The notes under the pieces were generated by a model. It saw only the letters and a program-made list of their open reading frames with translations. It searched no databases and was not told the DNA's origin. Positions 53,028 to 58,928 of a stretch of DNA of 64,000 bases are shown here, in pieces. The position numbers were made by a program, and so were the translations under genes. The DNA is taken from contig DXDR01000014.1 in the NCBI GenBank assembly GCA_019115385.1, positions 1 to 64,000 on the forward strand, in the 5' to 3' direction. The stretch's first letter is position 1. The number at the start of each line of letters is the position of its first letter. The DNA is from Candidatus Mediterraneibacter avicola (GTDB lineage: Bacteria; Bacillota; Clostridia; Lachnospirales; Lachnospiraceae).

Positions 53028-53399
53028 AAATTTTCCCTGCCAAGGGCGCTCTGCTTTCAGAGACGCAAAAAGGCAGGCGTACAAATGCAGCGACAAGGAG
53101 GAGTACATAGTTTTCCGAAGCAAAGAGAGAAGATGGCCGGTGTAAATCTTCGAGAGGGAATTATGGAAGGTAGCCTTCGAGCAGTGAACCGAACGGCATC
53201 TGCCGCGGCAGGAGCATCAGTAGGCTTCAACGTTTTCCCGCGTTACAGGGACTCGGTATCGGAATCATTTTCAGCGGCCGCGATGGAGCGGCGCCGGAAT
53301 CAGACTCCCGTACCGGAAGAGTGCAGAGAAAACTTCTCTGAAGTTAGGTGGTACCACGGATTTTAATTCGCCCTGAGCATGCAGATGCTCGGGGTTTTT
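53028..53399 (+). ncRNA. T-box riboswitch of ilvBN (valine specifier)
   Basis: Fills the 475-base gap before ilvB. Stem I has GGAGGAGTACAT on the 5' side, AGAGAG, and ATTATGGAAGGTAGC on the 3' side. The specifier loop GAAGGTAG matches that of the valS leader and contains GTA (53170-53172), a valine codon. T-box GGTGGTACCACGG ends near 53359; the terminator is a stem 53371-53380/53385-53394 with TTTTT. Confidence 0.92.
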
Positions 53400-57102: not shown

Positions 57103-58434
57103 TTAAAGGTCAAACAATATGGTCGCAATATTGAAGTAAATTAAAATGGAAAACGTGTCCACCAGTGTTGTGATCAGCGGGGATGCCATGATCGCCGGAT
57201 CCAGGCGGAGTTTTTGCGCAAACAGCGGAAGCATGCATCCGATCAGCTTGGAAATAATAACCGTAGCGATCAGAGACAGGGCGATGACCAGCGCAAGCTG
57301 GGAATTGTGATAAGTGATAAAGATGCGTATTCCGTTGGTCACCGCGAGAACGCCGCCGCAGATCAGAGAAATACGGAACTCCTTAAATATTACCCGGAAC
57401 AGATCACGGAAATGAATCTCATTTAAAGCCAGCCCTCGGATGATAAGAGTAGCGCTCTGTGAGCCGCAGTTGCCTCCCGTGTCCATCAGCATGGGGATGA
57501 AGGAGACAAGCAGGGGAATGGCTGCAAAGGCGTCCTCGTACCTTGTTATAATAGTTCCTGTGATAATGGAAGTAAACATCAGCACGAGAAGCCAGGGGAT
57601 CCTGTTTTTCGCGTGAGCCATCACAGAGGTCGCAAAATACGGTTTTTCGCTTGGGTTAATAGCTGCCATTTTTGTGATGTCCTCTGTGGCCTCCTCTACC
57701 ATGACATCCATCGCGTCGTCAAAAGTGACGATACCCACCATGTGGTCGTCTTCGTCAAGGACGGGAAGCGCGATCAGGTCGTATTTCGTAAACAGACGGG
57801 CCACTTCCTCTTTGTCCGTGTGTGTTTTTACAGAAATGATCTCTGTCTCCATCAGTGTTTCGATCAGCATATTGTCATCTTCTGTCATCAGCTCTTTGGC
57901 TGAGACGGTTCCGATCAGTTTCCGGCGTTCTGTGACATAACAGGTATAAATTGTTTCCTTGTGGATGCCGGTCTCCTTGATATGAGCCATAGACTGAGCT
58001 ACGGTCATGTTTTTTCTCAGATCTACATATTCAGTTGTCATGATGCTGCCTGCACTGTCGTCGGGATAGTTCAGCAGTTCGTTTATTTTGATGCGGTCCT
58101 CGGCAGATACCGTATCCAGAATGCGGGTCACCAGATTGGCGGGAAGATCTTCCAGCATATCGACAGTGTCGTCCATATACAGGTCTTCCAGCAGTTCCTT
58201 CAGTTCTTTTTCTGTAAATATCTGTACCAGATACGTCTGCATGGATGTGTCCATATTGGAAAATACTTCGGCTGCTTTGTCCTTTGGAATCAGACGGAAT
58301 GCAAGAGCCAGAGCCTTGTCATCCAGCTCGGAGAGAAGCAGGGCTATGTCCACTTCGTTCATCACGTCCAGAATACTTCTTACCGCTTTGAACTGCCGCT
58401 GTTCCAGGAGCTTTACAAAAATATCTCTGTTCAT
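57103..58434 (-). CDS. mgtE: Magnesium transporter MgtE
   Basis: A 443-residue Mg2+ channel: N domain (1-130, superhelical), two CBS domains (about 135-255, each with Mg-sensing acidic residues), a plug helix, and five TM helices with the pore motif MLMDTGGNCGSQSATLIIRGLA. ATG 58434 is preferred to 58440 because GAGAGG is 8 bases away. Controlled by an upstream M-box, and possibly by a leader ORF. Confidence 0.95.
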   Translation of the reverse strand: MNRDIFVKLLEQRQFKAVRSILDVMNEVDIALLLSELDDKALALAFRLIPKDKAAEVFSNMDTSMQTYLVQIFTEKELKELLEDLYMDDTVDMLEDLPANLVTRILDTVSAEDRIKINELLNYPDDSAGSIMTTEYVDLRKNMTVAQSMAHIKETGIHKETIYTCYVTERRKLIGTVSAKELMTEDDNMLIETLMETEIISVKTHTDKEEVARLFTKYDLIALPVLDEDDHMVGIVTFDDAMDVMVEEATEDITKMAAINPSEKPYFATSVMAHAKNRIPWLLVLMFTSIITGTIITRYEDAFAAIPLLVSFIPMLMDTGGNCGSQSATLIIRGLALNEIHFRDLFRVIFKEFRISLICGGVLAVTNGIRIFITYHNSQLALVIALSLIATVIISKLIGCMLPLFAQKLRLDPAIMASPLITTLVDTFSILIYFNIATILFDL

Positions 58435-58504
58435 AATCATTACCTCTCTTTATGAAATTTTTGATTTTAAAGCTGCATAAATGATAACTGGCGCCAGAGT
58501 CCAT
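58319..58504 (-). CDS. 61-codon ORF overlapping the mgtE start
   Basis: Begins MDSGASYHLCSFKIKNF at 58504 and ends 116 bases inside mgtE in another frame. It has the strongest ribosome binding site in the leader (AAAAGGAGGTGAGG). Its second half may be an overlap artefact. It could be a decoy or coupling ORF regulating mgtE translation, or the tail of the larger leader frame that starts at 58576. Function unknown. Confidence 0.4.
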   Translation of the reverse strand: MDSGASYHLCSFKIKNFIKRGNDYEQRYFCKAPGTAAVQSGKKYSGRDERSGHSPASLRAG

Positions 58505-58576
58505 AACCTCACCTCCTTTTATCCAAGACTCGCTCGCGGGCTGCGGCGCGGGATCCGGGTCAGCGTAAGCTGACAT
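58502..58576 (-). promoter_or_regulatory. mgtE leader frame with Asp/Pro-rich stretch
   Basis: An ATG at 58576 opens a frame reading MSAYADPDPAPQPASESW and running on into the 61-codon ORF. It lies downstream of the M-box terminator and upstream of mgtE. Alternating Asp and Pro followed by Pro-rich residues resembles the MgtL leader of Salmonella, where acidic/proline runs destabilise ribosomes at low Mg2+. The ribosome binding site (AGGGA) is weak. Confidence 0.45.
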
Positions 58577-58650
58577 AATATTTTTCCGAATCCCTGCGCA
58601 TCCTCGCAGAGCGCTTATCAGATGGGAGAAAACTCTCATCTGATAAATAA

Positions 58651-58893
58651 GAAAACTCCGTCACTGCCTGAACAATGACGGAGCCAGAATAACAAAATTA
58701 ATATCTGCGGATGTACATCGTCCAAGCTTTAGTATCACAGGGCATATCAACTGCATTAGGATGCGCCTTCACGACGCTTCCTGCTGACCAGCGCATTGTG
58801 TCTCCACAATCTTGCGGCAGCAGTCTTCGGGAATATCCCAATCCCTGTGGTAACCTCACCTACCGAAATATATCGAAATATATAAGATTTACC
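58651..58893 (-). ncRNA. M-box magnesium riboswitch with terminator
   Basis: On the minus strand the aptamer starts with TAGGTGAGG (near 58862), includes ACTGCTGCC, AATGCAGTTGATATGCCCTGTGATACTAAAGCT, and ends near 58711: the ykoK/M-box signature. The terminator is an 8-bp stem (58656-58663/58676-58683) followed by TTTTC. Mg2+ binding should promote termination before mgtE. It occupies most of the 608-base gap between the leader ORF and pepD. Confidence 0.93.
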
Positions 58894-58899
58894 TTACTT

Positions 58900-58928
58900 A
58901 TTGTAGCCCCTGGATCGCAGAGTGTCAA
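58900..58928 (-). promoter_or_regulatory. Promoter of the M-box-mgtE transcript
   Basis: On the minus strand TTGACA (58923-58928), 17-base spacer, TACAAT (58900-58905). Confidence 0.85.

Follow-up and report, generated by a model that had tools for sequence, protein, structure and literature searches.

An open reading frame that is conserved among relatives precedes the Mg2+ transporter gene mgtE in Candidatus Mediterraneibacter avicola and runs out of frame past the mgtE start. In the window, the 64,000-nucleotide stretch of DNA analysed here, this leader ORF (MDSGASYHLCSFKIKNFIKRGNDYEQRYFCKAPGTAAVQSGKKYSGRDERSGHSPASLRAG) has 61 codons plus a stop and occupies positions 58319 to 58504 of the minus strand. 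Comparison of leaders establishes that its start, its Shine-Dalgarno (SD) sequence and its frame are conserved, that its length changes by threes, and that its overlap with mgtE is under constraint. On the strength of these alignments, we lean slightly toward a reading in which the ORF acts in series with an M-box riboswitch and would hold mgtE down by competing with mgtE initiation.

Results

Layout of the mgtE leader

The mgtE gene lies at 57103-58434 on the minus strand (TIGR00400, 476 bits), with its start ATG at 58434 and a second in-frame ATG at 58440. A sigma-70-type promoter-like site for the mgtE transcript (TTGACA-17-TACAAT; 58900-58928, minus strand) agreed at 11 of 12 consensus positions and is a consensus match only. 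The sequence-only reading had placed an M-box and a terminator ahead of mgtE; the M-box was confirmed, and a terminator-like hairpin follows it. The M-box (Mg2+) riboswitch aptamer RF00380 was found at 58710-58874 on the minus strand with 86.9 bits (E 1.5e-17) against an Rfam gathering score of 44 bits; the match covered the full model (1-169) and was the only M-box match in the whole genome assembly. Downstream of the aptamer, an intrinsic-terminator-like hairpin with 14 pairs, a 4-nt loop and a T-rich tail was present at 58654-58685 (minus strand) and is probably the M-box expression platform. In having an aptamer and a terminator-like hairpin the locus resembles the M-box/ykoK leader (RF00380); it differs in the extra conserved ORF downstream. 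Elsewhere in the window, a T-box leader was seen at 53081-53378 on the plus strand (112.9 bits).

The leader ORF begins MD(S/A)GA(S/G)(Y/C)H among relatives and MDSGASYH here, and it continues, downstream, the frame of an Asp/Pro stretch that is described below. Its ATG at 58504 lies 70 nt before the mgtE ATG. The SD of the leader ORF (AAAGGAGGTGA; 58509-58519, minus strand) is near-perfect, with a duplex of -18.1 kcal/mol, and the SD of mgtE (AAGAGAGG; 58443-58450, minus strand) lies inside the leader ORF at -10.6 kcal/mol. Mean duplex energies with the 16S tail over 64 leaders were -17.8 kcal/mol for the leader ORF and -10.0 kcal/mol for mgtE. The leader SD outdid the mgtE SD in all 64; a pattern requiring this SD had supplied 20 of these leaders.

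Occurrence in relatives

Ahead of mgtE, all 30 congener loci fetched, the window's own included, had the block (A)AGGAGGTGAGGTTATGGACTCTGG.GCC in exact or slightly varied form. The leader ORF was found in 35 of 35 congener genomes with an mgtE orthologue of at least 79% identity; these comprise the 30 loci, two further congeners and three that are the same contigs as L096, L099 and L100. Two incomplete congener genomes (G011 and G014), in which no mgtE orthologue was seen, were left out of the counts. A search with a degenerate exact pattern in one genome per species returned 50 stretches, of which 49 were at the same place before mgtE; the remaining one (L066) was off-target. The named relatives in this pattern scan were mostly Mediterraneibacter, a genus of the Lachnospiraceae.

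Beyond the genus, the family was searched with approximately one genome per genus, in sets of 299 and 260 genomes. An mgtE of 63-78% identity was present in 14 of 259 other genomes. Where the upstream sequence was sufficient, the leader ORF was present in 12 of 13 and read MDAGASYHS with variants; the lone exception (L133) is the second gene of a tandem mgtE pair, whose upstream stretch was read without a leader ORF. The pattern search of the family gave matches in 9 of 299 genomes, seven of them mgtE leaders (the window's own included) and two off-target (L116 and L120). A longer pattern searched across the order, in a sample that included 14 other family members, matched a single genome among 146, that of the window.

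The counts that follow are based on 64 distinct leaders drawn from 93 rows: 30 congeners, 20 from the pattern scan, 12 from other genera and 2 further congeners. Three rows were excluded from the counts: the off-target L066, L127 with 29 nt upstream of mgtE, and the tandem-pair L133. Conservation of the start, Asp2 and the SD is partly by construction, since the pattern behind 20 of the 64 rows requires ATG, Asp2, Ser3, Gly4 and the SD; in addition, the string ATGGA(C/T)GC, present in 12 of the 13 leaders, served to locate the ORF in the 12 rows of other genera. Frame and length were not selection criteria in the collection of rows.

Sixty-two rows have no early insertion; in these, Met1 and Asp2 were invariant, partly by selection, and Gly4 was kept in 61, Ala5 in 58 and His8 in 57. 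Position 6 was Ser or Gly in 61 of 62, and position 5 was acidic in 0 of 62. The presence of Asp2 in 35 of 35 congeners is an observation that selection did not force. Over the first ten residues, 60 of 64 leader ORFs carried one acidic residue and 63 of 64 no proline.

The M-box reached its gathering score in 21 of the 25 ORF-bearing leaders that were run against Rfam. The other four (L014, L130, L134 and L160, the last a stretch of 761 nt only) kept the leader ORF but gave no M-box at that score. The ORF is thus independent of the M-box, and since it persists where no M-box reaches the Rfam threshold, its link to Mg2+ is through mgtE only. L103 ([Ruminococcus] torques ATCC 27756), which is grouped with L014 and was judged by motif only, likewise kept the leader ORF with no M-box detected.

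Frame and length of the leader ORF

The leader ATG and the mgtE ATG were 70 nt apart in 50 rows, 73 in seven, 76 in three, 64 in two, and 67 and 61 in one each. All six distances equal 1 modulo 3, so that the offset was the same in 64 of 64 leaders. As a control, the spacing between the M-box 3' motif and the leader ATG was spread over the three modulo-3 classes (24, 21 and 11 of the 56 leaders with the motif). Between the two ATGs, a stop codon occurred in 0 of 64 leaders in the leader frame (frame 0), in 63 of 64 in frame 1 and in 38 of 64 in frame 2; with bases shuffled from codon 10 onward, approximately 15 of 64 leaders would be expected to be stop-free.

Because the rows are related, counts of change on a tree are the fairest figure. 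On a FastTree phylogeny built for 55 rows from the part of MgtE that follows the overlap, the ATG distance changed at least 11 times, every time by threes. Among the 48 rows with both distances, the ATG distance showed 8 changes, none of which altered its modulo-3 class, compared with 43 changes in the control, 21 of which did.

The fixed offset bears on two other explanations. The first is programmed +1 frameshifting, by which the leader ORF would be joined to mgtE to give an N-terminally extended MgtE. An offset of +1 in 64 of 64 leaders is what speaks for it, but mgtE retains its own SD and ATG, the constraint described below is spread across codons 2-35 and not placed at one site, and the codons ahead of the leader stop vary between genomes. 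On inspection of the overlap sequences no common site was seen, and we regard this candidate as highly improbable.

The second is positive coupling, in which translation of the leader would open structure at the mgtE ribosome-binding site and would be needed for mgtE translation. Since mgtE starts with ATGA in 52 of the 64 genomes, a leader ORF with an offset of 2 modulo 3 would end right there, in the common coupling overlap. That offset was found in 0 of 64 leaders, from which we infer that competition is favoured over coupling. The leader ORF instead ends about 110 nt past the mgtE start. The structures that favour coupling are described with the RNA evidence below.

Constraint in the overlap with mgtE

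The leader ORF and mgtE overlap out of frame at 58319-58434 (minus strand), where synonymous constraint was about three times that in the rest of mgtE. The ORF ended 104-119 nt into mgtE in 61 of 64 rows, and 149, 263 and 335 nt into it in the other three. In 49 rows with a 443-residue MgtE, codons 2-37 had a synonymous-homozygosity excess of 0.302 and were the top 36-codon window (p = 3e-8); other blocks of mgtE gave 0.05-0.13. The constraint fell off where the leader ORF stops, and codons 22-34 were still constrained, with a mean of about 0.34 over the 12 columns listed. The paralogous mgtE, which has no such ORF, showed no excess in 20 congeners (codons 2-37, 0.092; rest, 0.110; p = 0.83).

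Avoidance of stop codons did not by itself account for this pattern: at sites where T cannot make a stop, constraint was 0.281 in the overlap and 0.100 elsewhere (p = 5e-6). Given the amino acids and codon usage of mgtE, the leader frame would stay free of stops as far as mgtE codon 34 with a mean probability of 0.08 over 58 rows; for the other out-of-frame reading the value was 0.0.

There were 90 wobble alternatives seen in the overlap that are silent in mgtE, and 89 of them alter a leader residue; keeping the wobble bases therefore keeps the peptide. This constraint beyond the avoidance of stops speaks for a further explanation, in which the product of the leader ORF is a functional small protein of approximately 60 residues that is dual-coded with the first part of mgtE and produced along with MgtE. 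So does the invariance of E49, R50 and H53 in 47 aligned leader products, in which G52, S54 and L55 were at least 90% conserved. However, the product is poorly conserved after codon 11, up to a KRG before mgtE, it matched nothing in Pfam or NCBIfam, and three of the 64 ORFs end later than the others. AlphaFold2 with the 47 sequences returned no confident fold (pLDDT 56.5, pTM 0.17), and a folded small protein was rejected on that ground. A functional product of some kind is, in our estimate, unlikely, though a real contender.

RNA structure around the two starts

Part of the conservation is probably at the level of RNA. Across leader codons 2-9, single-base codon edges were synonymous in 16 cases and non-synonymous in 18, against an expected synonymous share of 25%, and codon 5 was GCC in 58 of 62 rows. 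Together these suggest that an RNA-level constraint is present too, and the GCC codon is a point in favour of the whole block being an RNA or DNA element, such as a hairpin or a protein site, and not a translated frame. A possible small hairpin at 58481-58512 (minus strand), in which the leader SD would pair with leader codons 7-8, points the same way. It was kept in 17 of 17 leaders, with all 136 cells paired, and in no pair had both sides changed; the evidence for this hairpin is weak, and as read from these alignments it would look the same under coding constraint. The lengths that change by threes, the frame-specific absence of stops and an overlap constraint that ends with the ORF all stand against an element of RNA or DNA only. 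Such an explanation was rejected, as the leader-SD hairpin lacks a compensatory pair and mgtE codons 22-35 showed no excess structure (z 0.1), and we give it very little credence.

Further structure was seen around the mgtE start. The mgtE SD region tended to pair with mgtE codons 7-13, more strongly than synonymous shuffles would (mean z over 58 rows -1.35, with 22 of them below -2), and a hairpin in mgtE codons 8-21 had a mean z of -1.5 (below -2 in 7 of 30 rows), or of -2.2 with another codon table (below -2 in 31 of 40 rows). Both of these speak for positive coupling; on the other side, no conserved helix was found at the mgtE SD within the leader in 17 leaders. Weighed together with the position of the ORF end, positive coupling appears quite unlikely. 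The structure in codons 8-21 and the pairing of the mgtE SD may add to the overlap constraint.

At 58376-58410 (minus strand), in mgtE codons 9-20, a possible hairpin of the form CUUCUC...GAGGAG was seen, with some two-sided changes in relatives. The mgtE SD is another possible partner for the CUUCUC arm, and in the window itself the outer stem of this hairpin contains two mismatches.

The Asp/Pro stretch and a dispersed repeat

The leader ORFs of Salmonella mgtL and mgtCBR contain Pro/Asp codons and exert leader-peptide control of Mg2+ transporters. By likeness to these, the sequence-only reading had proposed that an Asp/Pro-rich frame downstream of the M-box terminator is a second, MgtL-like Mg2+ sensor. 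The letters ADPDPAPQPA do exist, at 58535-58564 on the minus strand, and the frame is open. Four in-frame starts upstream of them were tested: ATG 58639, which is the earliest ATG, GTG or TTG in that frame, ATG 58576, CTG 58621 and CTG 58609. None had a usable SD, with duplexes from +1.0 to -4.5 kcal/mol, compared with -18.1 kcal/mol at ATG 58504.

The Asp/Pro letters are carried by a dispersed structured repeat of approximately 109 bp at 58521-58629 (minus strand), between the terminator and the leader ORF. With 58650-58506 as a DNA query against 61 genomes (the window's own and 60 related), the segment gave a single hit in the window's genome and matches in 13 of the 60 others, over at least 100 bases in seven. 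It occurred at no fewer than 15 places in one genome (G003) and 14 in another (G029), both lower bounds because few candidates per genome were scored. Among 60 ORF-bearing leaders of mgtE for which 250 nt or more of upstream sequence was available, the repeat was present in one, the window's own, and the Asp/Pro codons were absent from the other 59; four further BLAST rows in this search were chance matches of 12-16 bases. The repeat was absent from leader L101, although its mgtE is 94.9% identical over 393 residues.

In an alignment of the window with 29 other copies (loci L033-L061), 18 of the 29 began ADPNPAP at the same place, 11 read ADPNPAPRLA and three kept DPDP. The repeat folds as a long hairpin (12 copies; two-sided change in 3 of 32 pairs), and the ADPDPAPQPA stretch is largely one arm of its stem. 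Since 18 of 29 other copies read ADPNPAP there, the Asp/Pro look comes with the stem of the repeat, and the letters are a by-product of insertion of the repeat into this leader. In related genomes the hairpin-forming repeat measures approximately 109-125 bp, and several copies lie at contig ends. Leaders L073 and L085 have an unrelated segment in common that stops directly at the leader-ORF SD, resembling the insertion of a mobile element there.

The Asp/Pro codons were therefore rejected as a Mg2+ sensor, given the lack of a usable SD, the presence of the repeat in 1 of 60 leaders and the identity of the letters with a repeat stem. What had been named in advance as evidence against the proposal, that no conserved frame or start would be found, is what the alignment of leaders gave for this stretch, and we give the Asp/Pro model virtually no weight. 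The broader part of the earlier proposal, a translated frame in series after the M-box that acts on mgtE, gained comparative support for other codons, those of the ORF at 58504, and not for the Asp/Pro codons.

Paralogues and a second mgtE group

No closed strong-SD ORF was found at threshold in the leaders of the window's own paralogue and of nine congener paralogues (L150-L159). The leaders of a distant mgtE group (at most 59% identity) were scanned for closed ORFs with an SD of -11.5 kcal/mol or stronger, whatever the peptide; in these 72 leaders no MDSGASYH-type ORF was found at the SD threshold. In 17 of the 72, an SD-preceded ORF encoded a peptide beginning M(D/E), and 13 of the 17 contained RS or SR when read by eye. 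An 18th candidate, of 11 residues, was ambiguous. ORFs of this second group, beginning M(D/E) and often with GRS, were noted in other Lachnospiraceae, in L135-L138, L143-L147, L162, L164, L167, L169, L196, L201, L207 and L221-L224. In L136, L144, L147 and L162, for example, a terminator-like hairpin includes the ORF start in its 5' arm, as seen without a shuffle control.

Discussion

The arrangement of two starts of unequal SD strength suggests how the leader ORF may act. The M-box would set the number of transcripts that pass the terminator. On read-through transcripts, ribosomes would load preferentially on the leader ORF and, in translating it, would sweep the weaker mgtE ribosome-binding site, so that mgtE translation is held down. 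Fewer starts on the leader, or stalling or drop-off within MD(S/A)GASYH, would leave the mgtE start accessible, so that more MgtE is made. That the leader ORF is translated, and that its effect is inhibitory, we infer from comparison of sequences. Mg2+ as the signal for the leader ORF is a guess; low Mg2+ would be the natural trigger, and Asp2 a candidate destabiliser. Competition for initiation needs no conserved amino acids, and wobble sites without stop risk are constrained, so a role for the product or the nascent chain may be missing from this scheme.

A more far-reaching version would supply such a role. Two Mg2+ inputs would stand in series in the Lachnospiraceae, the M-box acting on transcription and the nascent MD(S/A)GASYH aborting or stalling at low Mg2+ to uncover the mgtE start, with the DNA read in two frames; the M(D/E)..S.GRS ORFs of the second mgtE group would do a like job by means of attenuator hairpins. 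We offer this as speculation that is rather unlikely to hold in full.

The Salmonella mgtL and mgtCBR leaders differ from the conserved ORF, whose first codons are not rich in Pro and Asp. Another comparison is Salmonella mgtQ, an SD-preceded ORF just before a Mg2+ transporter gene with, as here, an acidic residue at position 2 (PMC8092293). There, translation of the leader and of the transporter mgtB are inversely related, and with Asp2 and Glu5 replaced the leader ORF was translated more and mgtB less (PMC8092293). By this analogy, Asp2 of the present ORF may be regarded as a lead and no more. The two differ in that mgtQ has 8 codons and works with alternative stem-loops (PMC8092293), whereas the ORF here has about 60 codons and overlaps the transporter gene.

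In M. tuberculosis, a conserved ORF in the pe20 leader, uORF2 (rv1805A), is under the control of an M-box (PMC12810186). The order of elements is alike, with an M-box first, then a conserved small ORF that has an SD, then the regulated gene (PMC12810186). That source describes a translational platform, Rho-dependent termination and pe20 as the regulated gene (PMC12810186), whereas a terminator-like hairpin is present here; also unlike uORF2 (PMC12810186), the ORF here overlaps mgtE out of frame and belongs to a different phylum. The Thioalkalivibrio mgtE motif, described as a structured riboswitch candidate confined to Thioalkalivibrio, is likewise a candidate regulatory RNA before mgtE, but the present locus has a leader ORF (PMC11109978). 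A search of the open-licence PMC literature for an M-box riboswitch together with an upstream open reading frame gave no match by those terms. Within that open-licence literature, the leader ORF was unreported in titles and abstract openings among the matches listed.

To our knowledge, leader-ORF control of Mg2+ transporters is known from enterobacteria and, recently, behind an M-box in Mycobacterium. The motif that looked right, DPDPAP, was a repeat insertion, and the conserved element adjoined it, which is a caution for readings of this kind. The leader ORF gives a definite start codon for mutation, and its overlap with mgtE would account for the silent-site constraint at the start of the gene. 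If a gut Firmicute does carry a conserved, dual-coding leader ORF out of frame behind its M-box, riboswitch and ribosome-based control can be stacked on one transcript.
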